Below, piece after piece: positions 34,851-41,629 of a stretch of 64,000 nucleotides of DNA (positions are counted from its first letter, which is position 1; each line of letters opens with the position of its first letter). The notes under the pieces are model-generated. The model had not been told where the DNA came from. It searched no databases and saw nothing but the letters and a program-made list of their open reading frames with translations. Both the position numbers and the translations under genes were made by a program. Source of the stretch: Gloeobacter violaceus PCC 7421 (GTDB lineage: Bacteria; Cyanobacteriota; Cyanobacteriia; Gloeobacterales; Gloeobacteraceae); assembly GCF_000011385.1 (NCBI RefSeq), contig NC_005125.1, positions 1,922,001 through 1,986,000 on the forward strand, written 5' to 3'.

Positions 34851-36070
34851 GCTGTATAGCAGCGCACATTTGTCCTATGAGCATTGAACTGACTCAGTTA
34901 CTCGATCTGCCCAACGTTTATGTCGAGCGACAGTCAATTAATGAACTGGGCATTTTCTTCTACTTGCAACCTCTAGCCCAAGAAATTCTCTGCCCGGGCT
35001 GCGGACAACTCACTGATATTCAGCATCAGGCACGTCCATTACAAGTCAGAGATTTGATGATGCGCAAGAAGCCTGTGTTTCTAAGGATTCCTCGGCGGCA
35101 GTTCTATTGCAAAGCTTGTCAACGCTACTGTACCGAGAAACTCGAGTTTCTGGATTGGCGTCGGCGACACACCCGCCGTTTTGAAGAAGATGTTTACGAG
35201 CGTGTTCAGCACTCCAGCCTCGAACAAATTGCCCGCGAAGAAGGAATCAGCCCGGAGGCAGTGCGGGGAATATTTGAGCATGTGGCAGTCGAGTCAAAAA
35301 AAAGACTGGGGCGAAGTAAAGCGCATCAGCATCGATGAGTTTAGTATGCGTCGTGGCCATGATTTCAAGACGGTAGTCAGCGACATCGAGACTGGAGAAC
35401 TGCTGGAAGTTGTGGACAGTCATAAACAAAAAGGAATTATTGAAAGCTTGTCACAGCAGCCTTTTAAGGTTCGTCAAGCAGTGAGGGAGGTCAGCATTGA
35501 TATGTGGGGCGGCTTCACAAAAGTGGTGCAGCAAGTATTTCCCAAAGCCGTGATCGTCTACGACCGTTTCCATGGGACGCGGATGGTGGTCGAGGCGGTG
35601 AAGAAGATTGCTAAACAGTGCGGCTTTAGAAAGTGCAAAGAGCAAGCCTGCCTACTCAAAAACGGGGTGGATTTAAGTATCGAAGAGCAGGAGGAGTTAG
35701 AAACACGCCTGAAGAGCAGCCGGCGGCTGCGCAAAGCCTATGCATACAAAGAAGAGTTCCGTTCGATTTAAGAGACAAGCCGGACGCTGGAGGAAGGTCA
35801 GCAGCGATTGGAAGTGTGGCTGTTAAAAGTTTGGGTTAAAAGTTTGGAAGGTATATGGGCGGGTAGTGCAAACAATAACGGAGCACTTCGAGAGGATATG
35901 CAACTACTTCTTAAGCCGTTCAAGTAGCGGAGTGATGGAGGGGATCAACAACCGTATTAAGCTAATTAAGCGTCAGGGCTACGGCTTCACGAATTTCAGG
36001 AATCTGCGATTACGGTTGCTCGCTTGCTTTGCCAAGAAAGGTTGCGCCTCACCTTAAACTCAGGAGAGCC
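34827..36070 (+). mobile_element. Decayed ISL3-family insertion sequence
   Basis: Terminal inverted repeats start GGCTCTCCTGAGT at the left (34827-34839) and the exact complement ends the element at 36058-36070; matching continues imperfectly for about 8 more bases (G-rich GGTG). Length is 1244 bp. GGCTCT ends and a transposase with an N-terminal zinc-finger fit the ISL3 family. No 8-bp target duplication was found: flanks read AAACAGGT left and TGTGCCGT right. GC is lower than in the core genome. Confidence 0.8.
34877..36057 (+). pseudogene. ISL3-family transposase, broken by three lesions
   Basis: The N-terminal part (34877-) has a CPGC...CKAC zinc finger and the HTH segment LEQIAREEGISPEAVRGIFEHV. 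Lesion 1: a run of eight A at 35296-35303 where seven would keep the frame; the true frame continues as KKDWGEVKRISIDEFSMRRGH with the catalytic Asp. The second catalytic Asp is in VIVYDRFHG. Lesion 2: an in-frame TAA at 35769-35771. Lesion 3: a 13-bp tandem duplication (35822-35834 repeated at 35835-35847) shifts the frame before ITEHFERICNYFLSR and the Glu-bearing GVMEGINNRIKLIKRQGYGF. Not functional as read. Confidence 0.85.
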
Positions 36071-36250
36071 TGTGCCGTTGGCCACGCTTGATCAGGAATT
36101 GCGTAGCGCAGGCAGTGCCCTCGGCCTTGTCCTGCTCGGCAGTTGAGCCCTGGAGGGGGCTCCGTTGCAAAGACCGGACATGCTGAAGCGCACACCTTCT
36201 GGTCGCCTTTCTCTATATCAAGTGGCGACATTTTCAGGCGGATCTGAATC

Positions 36251-36736: not shown

Positions 36737-38458
36737 ATGAAAACAACGATTCTGTCGTTCTTGGTCGGCGGTCGAACGGCCCGCCCGCGTGCGCCGCGCC
36801 GTTGGCAAGGGTGGTTGAGCGCGTCGTTGGGGGTGTGGTGGTGGGCAGTTGCCCTATCACCGGTGGGGGCGCAGGTGCCGCCGGGGGCCGTGGAGACCCG
36901 GGTGGGCGGGAGCCTGGGTTTTGTCCTCAACGGCAGCAATGTCTTCGATCACTCCGGCTTTTCTGTCAGCGGGGCGGGGGACGTCAACGGCGACGGACTG
37001 GACGACCTTATTGTCGGGGCTACTGGTGCCAACACGGACGGTCTGTCTTATGCCGGTCGCAGCTACGTGGTGTTCGGCAAGCGCAACGGACAGCCGGTCG
37101 AACTGGCGGTAATAGAAAGCGGCACGAGCCGGACGGGCTTTGCCATCAACGGCAGCAACGAGTACGATCGCTCCGGCTTTTCTGTCAGCGGGGCGGGGGA
37201 CGTCAACGGCGACGGACTGGACGACCTTATCGTCGGGGCTACTGGTGCCAACACGGACGGTCTGTCTTCTAATATCGGTCGCAGCTACGTGGTGTTCGGC
37301 AAGCGCGACAACCGACCGGTCGAGTTGGTGGTAATCGAAAGCGGCACCGGCCGGGACGGCTTTGCCATCAACGGCAACAATGTCTTCGATGACTCCGGCT
37401 TTTCTGTCAGCGGGGCGGGGGACGTCAACGGCGACGGACTGGACGACCTTATCGTCGGGGCTTCCGGTGCCGACCCGGACGGACGATCTACTGCTGGTCG
37501 CAGCTACGTGGTGTTCGGCAAGCGCAACGGCCAACCGGTCGAGTTGGCAGACATCGAAAGCGGCACCGGCCGCCACGGCTTCGTGATCAACGGCGCCAAT
37601 GAGACCGATCGCTCCGGCTTTTCTGTCAGCGGGGCGGGGGACGTCAACGGCGACGGACTAGACGATGTCATCGTCGGGGCTACTGGTGCCAACACGGACG
37701 GACCGTCTTCTAATATCGGTCGCAGCTACGTGGTGTTCGGCAAGCACGACAACCGACCGGTCGAGTTGACGGCAATCGAAAGCGGCACCAGTCGGGACGG
37801 CTTTGCCATCAACGGCAGGAATGACTACGATTTCTCCGGCTTTTCTGTCAGCGGAGCGGGGGACGTCAACGGCGACGGACTCGATGATGTCATCATCGGG
37901 GCTCCTTTTTCCGACCCGGACGGTCGGTACAATGCCGGTCGCGGCTACGTGGTGTTCGGCAAGCGCAACGGCCAACCGGTCGAGTTGGCGGCAATCGAAA
38001 GCGGCACCGGCCGGGACGGCTTTGCCATCAACGGCAGCAATGACTACGATTCCTCCGGCCGTTCTGTCAGCGGAGCGGGGGACGTCGACGGCGACGGACT
38101 CGATGATGTCATCATCGGGGCTCCTTTTTCCGACCCGGACGGTCTGTCTTATGCCGGTCGCGGCTACGTGGTGTTCGGCAAGCGCAACGGCCAACCGGTC
38201 GAGTTGGCGGCAATCGAAAGCGGCACCGGCCGGGACGGCTTTGCCATCAACGGCAGCAATGACTACGATTCCTCCGGCTATTCTGTCAGCGGGGCGGGGG
38301 ACGTCGACGGCGACGGACTAGACGATGTCATCGTCGGAGCTTCCCGTGCCGACCCGGACGGTCTGTCTTATGCCGGTCGCAGCTACGTGGTGTTCGGCAA
38401 GCGCAACGGCCAACCGGTGGAACTGGCGGACCTGGAAGCTGCCGGGCACACCCCTTAG
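36737..38458 (+). CDS. Secreted FG-GAP (integrin alpha-like) repeat protein
   Basis: 573 residues from ATG 36737, preceded by GAGAGG. An Arg-rich n-region and hydrophobic core (WLSASLGVWWWAVALSPVGAQ) form a signal peptide. The rest is seven tandem FG-GAP units of 73-74 residues, each with GFAINGSN, SGFSVSGAGDVNGDGLDDLIVGA and GRSYVVFGKRNGQPVEL. The DVNGDGLDD loops are calcium-binding DxDG-type sites. Seven blades could close into a beta-propeller by themselves. No C-terminal sorting or anchor domain follows; the protein ends LEAAGHTP. Confidence 0.88.
   Translation: MKTTILSFLVGGRTARPRAPRRWQGWLSASLGVWWWAVALSPVGAQVPPGAVETRVGGSLGFVLNGSNVFDHSGFSVSGAGDVNGDGLDDLIVGATGANTDGLSYAGRSYVVFGKRNGQPVELAVIESGTSRTGFAINGSNEYDRSGFSVSGAGDVNGDGLDDLIVGATGANTDGLSSNIGRSYVVFGKRDNRPVELVVIESGTGRDGFAINGNNVFDDSGFSVSGAGDVNGDGLDDLIVGASGADPDGRSTAGRSYVVFGKRNGQPVELADIESGTGRHGFVINGANETDRSGFSVSGAGDVNGDGLDDVIVGATGANTDGPSSNIGRSYVVFGKHDNRPVELTAIESGTSRDGFAINGRNDYDFSGFSVSGAGDVNGDGLDDVIIGAPFSDPDGRYNAGRGYVVFGKRNGQPVELAAIESGTGRDGFAINGSNDYDSSGRSVSGAGDVDGDGLDDVIIGAPFSDPDGLSYAGRGYVVFGKRNGQPVELAAIESGTGRDGFAINGSNDYDSSGYSVSGAGDVDGDGLDDVIVGASRADPDGLSYAGRSYVVFGKRNGQPVELADLEAAGHTP
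36928..38440 (+). repeat. Seven tandem repeats of about 219-222 bp
   Basis: Direct DNA-level repeats inside the FG-GAP gene. Unit length is 219 bp, or 222 bp in units 2 and 4, which carry an extra codon (SSNIG). Stretches of dozens of bases are identical between units, for example around DVNGDGLDD and SYVVFGK, which points to recent duplication or gene conversion. Confidence 0.9.
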
Positions 38459-38583: not shown

Positions 38584-39648
38584 ATGACCCAGCCCGATAC
38601 CCCTGCCCGCCTGGAATTCGCCCCCTCCCGCCAGTTCCCCAACTGGCTCGCCGAACAACAACTCGCCCTCGCCTTCACCACCTACCAGGCCGGCAAGCTC
38701 TTCCTCATCGGTCTCCAGCCCGACGGCCGACTGTCGCTGTTCGAGCGCACCCTCAACCGCTGCCTCGGGCTGTGGACCGACGCCCAAAGCCTCTGTCTCG
38801 GCACCCTCTACCAGATCTGGCGCTTCGAGAACGTCCTGGAGCAGGGCGAGACCCACCAGGGCTACGACCGCTGCTTCGTGCCGCGCGTCGGCTGGGTCAC
38901 AGGCGACATCGACGCCCACGACCTGGCCGTCGACGCCACAAGCCGCCCGGTCTTCGTCAACACGCTCTTCTCCTGCCTGGCCACCGTCAGCCCCACCCAC
39001 AGCTTCGCCCCCCTCTGGCAACCGCCTTTCATCAGCCGCCTGGCCGCCGAGGACCGCTGCCACCTCAATGGCCTCGCGATGCGCGACGACGGCAAGCCGG
39101 GCTGGGTGACGGCGGTCTCGCGCACGGACGTGGGCGACGGCTGGCGCGAACACCGCAGGACGGGCGGTTGCGCAGTGGAGGTGGCAAGCGGCGAAGTGGT
39201 GGTGGCGGGCCTGTCGATGCCCCACTCGCCGCGGTGGTACCGGGGAAGGCTCTGGTTGCACAACTCGGGCAGCGGCGAATTCGGCTATGTGGACACCAAA
39301 GCAGGCAAGTTCGTGGCGGTGGCGTTTTGTCCGGGGTACCTGCGGGGATTGGCCTTCTGGGGCGATTTCGCGGTGGCGGGGCTCTCGAAGCCGCGGCGGG
39401 ACCGGGCGTTTTCGGGACTGCAGTTGCAGGAGCGTTTGAACAAAGAAGGGGTGGGGGCGCGCTGCGGGCTGGTGGTCATCGACCTCAGGCGCGGGGACAC
39501 GGTGCACTGGCTGCGCATCGAGGGGGAGATGATCGAAGAGTTGTACGATGTGGCAGTCCTTCCGGGAGTGCGTCGGCCGATGGCGATCGGTTTTGTCAGC
39601 GATGAGATCCGGCGGTTGCTGTCGGTGGGTGAGCCGCAATCGCTGTGA
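38584..39648 (+). CDS. TIGR03032-family protein
   Basis: 354 residues. Family-like stretches: WLAEQQLALAFTTYQAGKLFLIGLQPDGRLSLFERTLNRCLGL near the N-terminus, DIDAHDLAVDATSRPVFVNTLFSCLATV, WLTAVS-like GWVTAVSRTD, and MPHSPRWYRGRLWLHNSGSGEFGYVD. The alternating beta pattern suggests a propeller-type fold. Proteins of this kind turn up in cyanobacteria near sulfotransferase or TPR proteins, but their role is not established. No signal peptide. It lies 125 bases after the FG-GAP gene on the same strand. Confidence 0.8.
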   Translation: MTQPDTPARLEFAPSRQFPNWLAEQQLALAFTTYQAGKLFLIGLQPDGRLSLFERTLNRCLGLWTDAQSLCLGTLYQIWRFENVLEQGETHQGYDRCFVPRVGWVTGDIDAHDLAVDATSRPVFVNTLFSCLATVSPTHSFAPLWQPPFISRLAAEDRCHLNGLAMRDDGKPGWVTAVSRTDVGDGWREHRRTGGCAVEVASGEVVVAGLSMPHSPRWYRGRLWLHNSGSGEFGYVDTKAGKFVAVAFCPGYLRGLAFWGDFAVAGLSKPRRDRAFSGLQLQERLNKEGVGARCGLVVIDLRRGDTVHWLRIEGEMIEELYDVAVLPGVRRPMAIGFVSDEIRRLLSVGEPQSL

Positions 39649-39825: not shown

Positions 39826-40518
39826 CTATCTCAAGCAAGTTTCCAGTTGCCCCAGCCATTGTTTAAAATGCGGGCACTCTTCACGGATGGCATCGAGACC
39901 AATTTCCAAGATGGCTAATTTTCCGAATAGAATCTTGCTGTAGCCAGGCATCAGTGTTTTCAGACGTTGTGATGGCGCCGTCTGCGGAGAATCATTGATT
40001 TCCTCTGGAGTAGCAAACTGCAGGCGAATTTCCTGCAGGTTTTGAACTAAATCGGGACGTTCAATTCCTCGTGCAAACTTCTCGCAGTCACTGAACAGCA
40101 ATGCTTCAAACTCATGCATCATTATGTATGGTATGAAGCGCTTTGGGTCAAAATGATCTCCAAGCTGATTACAAACATCGACAGTCATTGCTGATTCAAC
40201 TTTCTTTGCGTTCTCAGGAAACGGCAGCAAAGCAGCTTGATCACAGCCTGGCCACGCATTATTTCCGGTGCGCGGGAGTGCGTAGTAATCAACCATCGTC
40301 GTTGACAAACAATTGGGATCTCCTTGAAGATGATTGATTATATCTTTGCGAACTGCCTGCCAAGCACGAATGCCGCCGCGGCGAAGGCGGTTACGAGAAT
40401 TACCTAATAGGCGAGCGCTGATACTGGTATAGCCATGACTGAGAAGATGTGGACCGAGTATTTCATTGACAAAGGTTTCCTCCGTTTGTCCTTCAACATG
40501 TACCAGTAGTCTGGACAT
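39826..40518 (-). CDS. DUF4276 family protein (TOPRIM-like)
   Basis: 230 residues from ATG 40518. The N-terminus VHVEGQTEETFVNEILGPHL matches the EGxTE motif of DUF4276 and TOPRIM-like nucleases; later come TTMVDYYALP (a D-containing second motif) and MHEFEALLFSD. It starts four bases after the stop of the AAA ATPase gene, so the two form an operon. In OLD, PARIS, AbiL-type and related systems an ATPase is paired with a TOPRIM-like effector, which is the likely model. GC is clearly below the surroundings, suggesting transfer. Confidence 0.82.
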   Translation of the reverse strand: MSRLLVHVEGQTEETFVNEILGPHLLSHGYTSISARLLGNSRNRLRRGGIRAWQAVRKDIINHLQGDPNCLSTTMVDYYALPRTGNNAWPGCDQAALLPFPENAKKVESAMTVDVCNQLGDHFDPKRFIPYIMMHEFEALLFSDCEKFARGIERPDLVQNLQEIRLQFATPEEINDSPQTAPSQRLKTLMPGYSKILFGKLAILEIGLDAIREECPHFKQWLGQLETCLR

Positions 40519-40522
40519 CCGG

Positions 40523-41629
40523 TCATTCTCTCCTAGGACGTCCACCAAATTCATTCTTCTCCCAAAGCTGGCCAAGACTATAGTCCTGCAGCATGGCTGC
40601 AAGTTTTTCCGGCTCCAATCTAGAAAATTGTGTGCTGCCATCAACGCGCTCAGCAACCAGTACGTCTTCCGCTTCAAATTGATCTAGAAGAAGAGACGAT
40701 TGGGTTGAAAGAATAACTTGCGTTTCAACAGCCGCTTTCTTGACAATTGATGCAAGAAGATTGATTGCATAGGGATGTAGGCCAAGTTCAGGTTCGTCTA
40801 CCAAAATGACCGAAGGGCGAGAGACTGCAGGCTGCAAGAAAAGTGTGGCCAGTGCAATGAATCGCAGCGTACCGTCTGACAGGGATGCAGCATCAAAGTA
40901 AGCGTCGGAGCCTTTATGCAACCATTGCAGTTGGATCTTTTTATCATTCAATTTTAATGGTTCGAGTATGAAGTCATCGAAAAATGGAGCAACGAGCTTA
41001 ACAGTGCGAAGGATAAGGCTGTAGGAGGTTTCGTGTTTTTCACGTAAGTAGTAGAGATAGGCAGCGAGATTTGAACCATCGGGCCGCAAGTAGCGATTAT
41101 CGTTGATATCAGCTGTCTTTTTCATGGGTGAAGTCAAGCCGGTATCATGAAAATGATAGAGCCTCCAACTATCAAGCCTCGTGCGAACATAGGTGACAAT
41201 TTCTTGAGTCTTTGGGTCGCTTATTGCGGCCTCTCTCCCAAATGGCAGGAGCGATCTTATGGTTTTGGAGTCAGAGGCCGATTTATCCGAAGAATAAATA
41301 AACTCAGATTGTACAATCAGCTCATCAGCAACCGTCGGCTGGAGTTCAATCTCATACCGATTCCGACCGCCCCGAAAGGAAATGTCAATTTGAATTTTAT
41401 CCGTCACTTTAGAACCGTAATGAAGGATTTTCTCAGCCCCGCCAGCCTTAATCACATAATCTTGAAGACGCCCTTCTCTGAGCGCATGCAGGAAGGTGAA
41501 AACATCAATAAAGTTGGACTTTCCTGAACCGTTCGGGCCGATAATCACGTTGATCGGCTTTAGCTTTAATTGCTCGATAGAAGCAATACTCTTGAAGCCT
41601 TTAACAGTAATAGTTTCAAGTTCAACCAT
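40523..41629 (-). CDS. AAA family ATPase (SMC/OLD-like, AAA_21 type)
   Basis: 368 residues. Walker A IIGPNGSGKSNFIDVF near residues 30-45, ABC-type signature-like SLSDGTLRFIALATLFL near 250-266, Walker B SVILVDEPELGLHPYAI near 275-291, and ILSTQSSLLLDQF with the sensor region. Between them is a divergent insertion of about 150 residues. ATPases of this class partner nucleases in anti-phage systems. The next gene (DUF4276) is four bases away. Two sampled 60-base lines here are about 42% GC against about 62% in the SPFH genes next door. Confidence 0.88.
   Translation of the reverse strand: MVELETITVKGFKSIASIEQLKLKPINVIIGPNGSGKSNFIDVFTFLHALREGRLQDYVIKAGGAEKILHYGSKVTDKIQIDISFRGGRNRYEIELQPTVADELIVQSEFIYSSDKSASDSKTIRSLLPFGREAAISDPKTQEIVTYVRTRLDSWRLYHFHDTGLTSPMKKTADINDNRYLRPDGSNLAAYLYYLREKHETSYSLILRTVKLVAPFFDDFILEPLKLNDKKIQLQWLHKGSDAYFDAASLSDGTLRFIALATLFLQPAVSRPSVILVDEPELGLHPYAINLLASIVKKAAVETQVILSTQSSLLLDQFEAEDVLVAERVDGSTQFSRLEPEKLAAMLQDYSLGQLWEKNEFGGRPRRE

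Follow-up and report, generated by a model that had tools for sequence, protein, structure and literature searches.

A seven-unit FG-GAP array of Gloeobacter violaceus as a probable free-standing integrin-type propeller with a TIGR03032/DUF4915 neighbour

The gene at positions 36737-38458 (+) of the window, that is, of the whole stretch of 64,000 nucleotides analysed here (G000:C1:1922001-1986000, from a single contig of 4,659,019 bases), encodes an FG-GAP propeller protein of 573 amino acids. With a probability of roughly 60% we read it as a probably Sec-exported, free-standing seven-bladed calcium propeller of the integrin type, the units of which exchange sequence and which has the product of the neighbouring TIGR03032 gene as its probable partner. 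The protein would form a free-standing ring with the fold of an integrin alpha head, and one Dx[DN]xDG loop per unit is predicted to lie on one face of it. The Cage face, opposite the calcium loops, could bind a ligand, for which a glycan or a surface protein is the likeliest candidate, and this binding might serve attachment or recognition. Within each array the units would exchange sequence by gene conversion or by paired gain and loss, and closure of the ring would keep most arrays at seven. The propeller probably works together with the TIGR03032/DUF4915 product, the gene of which is observed as a recurrent neighbour on the same strand.

The ATG at 36737 is the probable start, the reading frame continuing open farther upstream, and the stop codon occupies 38456-38458. 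The first 60 residues (36737-36916, +) can be aligned with the leaders of the congener proteins and contain the hydrophobic stretch LSASLGVWWWAVALS, by which, on the Kyte-Doolittle scale only, they represent a putative signal sequence. They are followed on the same strand by unit 1 (36917-37135; 73 amino acids, ending in GKRNGQ), unit 2 (37136-37357; 74, GKRDNR), unit 3 (37358-37576; 73, GKRNGQ), unit 4 (37577-37798; 74, GKHDNR), unit 5 (37799-38017; 73, GKRNGQ), unit 6 (38018-38236; 73, GKRNGQ; 95.9% nucleotide identity to unit 5) and unit 7 (38237-38455; 73, GKRNGQ), which includes the C-terminal tail. An extra codon, AAT, is found in units 2 and 4 only. The number of units, their endings and the place of the extra codon are exactly those given in an earlier description made without database searches (the sequence-only reading). 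The Pfam FG-GAP model PF01839 matches in seven stretches (E 4.6e-55; 183.2 bits against a curated score of 22.1), and TRF reports a 219-bp unit in 6.9 copies as well as a 441-bp double unit in 3.4 copies, far above chance. Long antisense open frames at 36857-37576 (−) and 37658-38194 (−) recur with the units and are probably a by-product of codon composition.

As far as the sequence tells, all seven units possess a calcium-type Dx[DN]xDG motif in the 1,2-loop. Codons 14 and 34 still encode glycine, and the Cage proline (codon 36) occurs in units 5 and 6, the remaining five units having Thr or Ser there. As this proline is present in most but not all blades in the propellers described by Chouhan et al. 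(2011, PMC3192720; the parts of that paper used here), only the claim to a strict, full FG-GAP/Cage motif fails. An NGS site was considered as a sequon and this idea was dropped, the site being present in only four of the seven units and several units of the congener G002 having D instead of N.

The AlphaFold2 model, calculated from an alignment of 42 proteins, is a seven-bladed propeller (pLDDT 90, pTM 0.88) in which residues 1-57 mostly are of low confidence, the leader lying for the most part below a pLDDT of 50. Its strands repeat unit by unit, with four assigned by DSSP in most units and three runs listed in units 5-7. Integrin alpha heads match the predicted model best in VIA-align, with a Z of 36.2 and an rmsd of 2.7 over 387 aligned residues, and account for all of the best 50 rows both there and in Foldseek. 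In a PDB profile search the best 60 of the 62 matches, with E values from 7.5e-18, belong to integrin alpha chains. The sequence-only reading had proposed a self-contained secreted propeller of seven blades without an anchor, and the prediction agrees with it: a leader precedes the units, and a C-terminal anchor is not evident. In the model the seven sequential repeats are seven blades with the integrin alpha head fold, in keeping with the criteria of Chouhan et al. Blade 7 of integrins obtains its fourth strand from the sequence just before blade 1 (PMC3192720, in part). Following this closure rule the first strand of unit 1 probably completes blade 7, and a unit would correspond to a blade permuted by one strand.

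A further aspect arises from the two faces of the ring. In a four-strand meander the loops b1-b2 and b3-b4 are located on one side (face A), which is the Cage face and by topology the ligand face of integrins, and the b2-b3 calcium loop and the connection from b4 to the next b1 are located on the other (face B, the calcium face). These classes were taken from the model secondary structure of unit 1, independently of variation. In the window array (WIN) pN/pS is 1.56 in the loops of face A compared to 0.37 in those of face B and 0.37 in the strands, and pN is higher on face A than on face B in all six Gloeobacter arrays tested (permutation p 0.0002-0.021; the three-unit array K3 was left out). 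The bootstrap interval for face-A pN over overall pS in WIN reaches from 0.85 to 2.31 and spans 1, so selection above neutrality is not demonstrated on this face. Outside Gloeobacter all 81 arrays from 56 loci are more variable on face A at the protein level; for this set thirteen Gloeobacter or duplicate loci were excluded, arrays with fewer than six countable units were unscored, and a recheck found no duplicates. The variability of face A is therefore regarded as a family trait, which may reflect loose loops. A positive selection of face A peculiar to WIN was rejected, as the relatives behave alike and the bootstrap includes 1.

Within the genus one genome per species was compared. The own genome of WIN contains a second array with seven units (PAR, at 1048615; 71% identity). 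The draft genome G001 (100 contigs) has one array of five units (S1), G002 has three arrays with seven, seven and three units (K1, K2, K3), and G003 has one array (M), broken by two insertions, to which we assign five intact and two interrupted units. Seven units are found in five of these seven arrays (WIN, PAR, K1, K2 and M). A variation in length, which the sequence-only reading had considered for strains, is thus seen between species, in S1 and K3. Of the six sister arrays (L021, L022, L023, L025, L026), five contain at least one short unit of 62-70 amino acids, and these units often lack a portion of the b3-b4 loop. There are three of them in PAR (units 4, 6 and 7), in K1 and K2 it is the fifth unit, and WIN has none. 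We further report at least 140 matches to PF01839 in the own genome, where 150 out of 295 candidates were scored; the three congeners have 87-129. Judged by such domain matches Gloeobacter is a genus rich in FG-GAP-type repeats. Among 130 chains with at least four units, WIN included and seven duplicate loci excluded, exactly seven units occur in 73 (73 of 129 if one duplicate is subtracted), the shorter chains being possibly cut at contig ends or depleted by missed motifs.

The history of the units is best read as concerted evolution at a near-fixed number. In the seven Gloeobacter arrays 30-32 of the 41 units, depending on the handling of ties, are closest to another unit of the same array; 5000 label shufflings give 5.3 such units on average and never more than 18 (the incomplete units Ma_3 and Mb_3, and the fragments with which Mb and Mc begin, were set aside). 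For WIN this holds for seven out of seven units among these 41 Gloeobacter units. The median dS within an array is 0.28 for WIN, 0.45 for K1, 0.58 for PAR, 0.66 for K3, 0.79 for S1, 0.85 for M and 0.97 for K2. The TIGR03032 gene of this species has a dS of 0.21 to that of G003 and of 0.27 to that of G001, which indicates that WIN overall is about as old as the species split and that the pair of units 5 and 6 is much younger. A special conservation of the last unit was also considered, S1_5, Mc_1, WIN_7 and PAR_7 grouping together with a support of 0.99; this candidate was rejected because the grouping vanishes without codons 67-74 and hence rests on the C-terminal tail.

An alternative to exchange is a recent global amplification from one blade with subsequent point divergence, which we consider unlikely and yet worth keeping in mind. 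It would account for the observation that all seven WIN units cluster if the tail is omitted, at a support of 0.84 by themselves and of 0.92 together with their sister PAR_4, and for the first rank of WIN among the 130 chains in mean nucleotide identity of the unit core, these chains coming from 84 loci drawn by likeness to WIN's family. Single blades are also reported as the source of 92% of the set of Pereira and Lupas (2022, PMC9218822, in part). However, the dS of the unit pairs, which ranges from 0.019 to 0.35 in a hand alignment and from 0.019 to 0.38 with MAFFT, is not star-like. Endings of the NNR and DNQ type, related to DNR, are also present in the array of G003, so the ending types look old. 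Moreover, an amplification would have to arrive once again at the leader, the tail and the count of seven, which are common to PAR and most congener arrays.

The surroundings of the arrays bear on a second alternative. Upstream of PAR, 8.3 kb of DNA match the DNA upstream of the G001 array at 91%, and 6.8 kb match that upstream of the G003 array at 93%, up to the end of the G003 stretch; the 1.2 kb downstream of WIN including the TIGR03032 gene match the DNA downstream of the same two arrays, again with 91% and 93%. Sequence of the ISL3 family adjoins both G. violaceus arrays: Pfam ISL3 domains are found at 34877-35335, and 35458-36070 is 96.6% identical to sequence beside PAR (L021). The crossed matches of the flanks and the presence of ISL3 beside both arrays probably go back to an ISL3-linked rearrangement by which an ancestral locus was divided. 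The ISL3 transposase region itself (34877-36070) presents itself as several shorter overlapping frames. The segment 36071-36317 (no strand assigned) is located in G003 directly beside the homologue of 38446 onward, the homologue of 36317 being followed within 25 bp by that of 38446, and in G001 it is found near it as 36072-36148. Position 38446 onward comprises the last bases of the array and its stop codon, and the same short remnant is present in G001. The second array was probably deleted in the lineage of G001 and G003; alternatively, it may have been gained in G. violaceus. In G003 the array (L026, 7606-12690) is split by an insertion of approximately 1.1 kb and by sequence similar to the ISL3 of the window, partly in both orientations. 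A copy of the beginning of the TIGR03032-gene region, approximately 200 bp long, is located at about 7378-7575 of L026 (83% identical to that of G001); it follows the G003 array, and the full TIGR03032 gene lies farther on.

One could suspect a gene under relaxed constraint that is being lost, with the similarity of its units as a by-product of neutral tandem-repeat turnover. Between PAR and G001 the leader has a dN of 0.249 and a dS of 0.403 (dN/dS about 0.62), far above the adjacent gene of 388 amino acids (0.031 and 0.213), which is an argument that the propeller gene evolves fast. The copy in G003 is interrupted, and the place of the second array is empty in both G001 and G003. The broken array and the arrays with five and three units indicate that the gene is dispensable and that seven is not absolute. 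Such a loss is nevertheless improbable in our view: the open frame is kept in six of the seven genus arrays, pN/pS is 0.33 in the core codons (bootstrap 0.13-0.65) and 0.12 in the calcium loop, and no unit has lost its Dx[DN]xDG motif.

The sequence-only reading had described the units as near-identical and alternating, and had derived them from the duplication of a two-unit block followed by single-unit expansion. Near-identity holds for units 5 and 6 (dS 0.019) and loosely for units 2 and 4 (91% of nucleotides), but not for the whole set, the 21 pairs having a mean identity of 84% in nucleotides and 76% in amino acids with the lowest pair at 63% in amino acids. An alternation is seen in the endings, in the extra codon and in codons shared privately by units 2 and 4 (9, 12, 45-47, 58-60) or by units 1 and 3 (9, 10), but it does not extend to a whole-unit similarity of period two (permutation p 0.21; adjacent similarity p 0.06). 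The alternation in units 1-4 is local.

For a block of units 1 and 2 copied to units 3 and 4, with units 5-7 added singly afterwards, the signals are mixed. The split 13|24 is favored by codons 9 and 58 together with the indel of units 2 and 4, but codon 42 favors 12|34 (none favors 14|23; codons 43-47 were excluded), and two stretches cross the blocks: unit 4 joins units 5-7 at codons 30-31, and codons 36-40 are common to units 1, 2 and 4. Unit 3 has GAC CCG at codons 39-40 as in units 5-7 and TCC at codon 36 as in unit 7. An added single unit is conceivable at most for the pair of units 5 and 6 with its high identity, but unit 7 shares privately with unit 6 only codons 12 and 24 and is no recent copy of it (dS 0.28, tail included). 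Since seven units are present in most Gloeobacter arrays, a net single-unit expansion is doubtful and little of it is left to explain. We regard this stepwise history as quite improbable, and the mixed block signal together with the presence of NNR- and DNQ-type endings in G003 is one of the reasons why exchange is preferred.

Concerning the exchange itself, the PHI test at the nucleotide level gives p 0.001 on an alignment with a misplaced gap near codon 45. At the codon level the values for seven units are 0.30 (w 2) and 0.005 (w 4) in codons 1-66, and 0.13 (w 2) and 0.0008 (w 4) if all codons are included; for six units they are 0.30 (w 2) and 0.19 (w 4). As significance at the codon level is reached only at w 4 and if all seven units are included, gene conversion is a mechanism that we infer. 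A literature search for gene conversion together with propeller or blade yielded no title on FG-GAP arrays among the matches listed. An old array whose units have diverged independently since before the genus, for which one could cite seven as the commonest count in the fetched chains, is highly implausible, as most units have their nearest neighbour in their own array and as the synonymous divergence, which according to the sequence-only reading would be equal in an old array, is unequal (0.019-0.38).

The gene at 38584-39648 (+), 125 bp downstream of the array, encodes 354 amino acids and belongs to TIGR03032/DUF4915 (E 2.4e-157 and 6.5e-141). TIGR03032 is a recurrent same-strand neighbour of FG-GAP arrays across distant bacteria. 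In 59 genomes it is present in 13 of the 15 that are FG-GAP-positive and in 8 of the 44 that are negative (Fisher p 3.7e-6, to be taken as a guide only, as the genomes are related and four of the 13 are Gloeobacter). In ten of the 13 genomes the two genes share a strand and are no more than 1.5 kb apart; in G005, G015 and G043 they are on different contigs of drafts. Among the control genomes, that of Synechococcus elongatus has matches to both families. No TIGR03032 neighbour was found at PAR, neither in its 18-kb region nor elsewhere near, nor at K1 and K3. In the reverse direction 16 out of 79 GTDB loci fetched solely by FG-GAP likeness contain TIGR03032, 14 of them on the same strand, compared to twelve control proteins of the window, of which eleven occur in none of the 79 loci and one in a single locus. 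The 16 loci include Planctomycetota, Rhodobacterales, Methylobacter, Nitrosomonas, two cyanobacteria, Chthoniobacteraceae and Fulvivirga; among them L079 is a weak match of 72 amino acids on the opposite strand, and the matches in L047, L074 and L098 run past the end of the locus. In L029, L051, L077 and L108 the two genes touch or overlap, with mechanically set ORF limits. Past the TIGR03032 gene two overlapping genes at 39826-41629 (−) match HEC-01B (E 7e-75) and HEC-01A (E 2e-141) in PADLOC and represent a candidate anti-phage defence pair.

The TIGR03032 protein is itself predicted to fold as a propeller, with six blades as counted from the strands and the structural matches (pLDDT 88). 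Its model has its best Z of 23.1 to the propellers of megalin and nidogen, and propellers of several kinds occupy the best 50 Foldseek and the best 50 VIA rows, in which no glycosyltransferase occurs. In the PDB no sequence relative was found at E up to 1. Among the residues invariant in 27 out of 27 sequences are D95, H112, D157, C159, H160, N162, R188, H214, R217, R254 and R271. Most of the eight homologue starts inspected by eye are devoid of a signal-like stretch (L110, with a mechanically set start, has one), and the protein is for this reason taken as cytosolic. In the literature searched TIGR03032/DUF4915 is unnamed, a single paper mentions FG-GAP together with Gloeobacter, and the FG-GAP/TIGR03032 gene module looks undescribed.

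A hint towards its function comes from glycosyltransferases. TIGR03032 is fused to TPR and GT41 (L116), to GT2, TPR and a GT9-like stretch (L114, L115) and to GNAT and TPR (L117); in L113 it adjoins TPR and GT41 genes, and in L120 it lies one gene away from a TPR-GT41 gene. We compared 40 TIGR03032 regions of 3.6-13.1 kb from the phylum (the first 40 of 62 listed matches, five already known ones set aside) with 20 control regions, each of 13 kb, taken from 11 of the genomes concerned. GT41 occurs in ten of the 40 (all on the same strand), GT2 in two and a close FG-GAP array in seven (all on the same strand), and 20 contain an ORF of either orientation that has at least four DxDxDG motifs; all four counts are zero in the controls. 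The difference is significant for GT41 (Fisher p 0.023) and for the calcium-motif ORFs (p 3.5e-5). For FG-GAP it is not significant in this set alone (7 out of 40 versus 0 out of 20, p 0.084), and the claim of a neighbourhood with TIGR03032 therefore rests on the reverse test. Eighteen more TIGR03032 regions (five with FG-GAP, four with GT41, two with GT2), several of them preselected for the pairing, were kept outside all tests. GT41 adjoins three of the 79 FG-GAP loci (L031, L042, L050), all three without TIGR03032, which indicates that the triad is rare; in L161 FG-GAP, TIGR03032 and GT41 genes stand in a row.

Taken together, we tentatively propose, as a reading that has some appeal and is still more probably wrong than right, that TIGR03032/DUF4915 is a dedicated cytosolic factor for the maturation of exported propellers and adhesins with calcium repeats of the FG-GAP or cadherin kind, that it is partnered with GT41 and that the propellers are glycoproteins. 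The factor could recognise the repeats or carry out a chemical step by means of the invariant set of Asp, Cys, His, Asn and Arg, and the GT41 partner might be an O- or N-glycosyltransferase. A conserved gene module in distant bacteria would then make glycosylated integrin-like propellers.

For bacterial integrin-like propellers the paper of 2011 leaves the function open in the parts used here. TIGR03032, being fused to families of protein-glycosylating enzymes, provides a concrete handle on their role and maturation. The pairing with TIGR03032 and the ties to glycosyltransferases are the part which specialists may not expect, and the function is put forward as a hypothesis. The Gloeobacter arrays in turn represent a clean case for how ring closure limits the turnover of repeats.

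WIN is a well-formed and unusually homogeneous array of a known family. The integrin-type propellers of Chouhan et al. likewise possess seven FG-GAP repeats with one DxDxDG-type loop each, have no membrane anchor reported in the parts of the paper used here, are more regular than human integrins and include cyanobacterial members; unlike them, WIN has the Cage proline in only two of its seven units. The evolution at the level of units and the neighbourhood of TIGR03032 go beyond the points taken from that paper. The highly repetitive propellers of Pereira and Lupas have a median internal identity above 60%, as does WIN with its mean of 76%; the FG-GAP family represents 2% of their set, for which the parts of the paper used report that young copies decay and that one amplification involved two blades. 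Unlike a single amplification of this kind, WIN displays an uneven divergence of units and belongs to a genus in which seven is the prevailing count, which ongoing exchange suits better. A precedent for the proposed maturation is the HMW1C/HMW1 system (McCann and St Geme 2014, PMC3983070, in part), where an exported adhesin and its dedicated cytoplasmic GT41 enzyme are encoded in the same locus and HMW1C glycosylates the adhesin in the cytoplasm before export. In Gloeobacter, unlike in that system, the neighbour is TIGR03032, and the link to GT41 is given by fusion and neighbourhood in other cyanobacteria.
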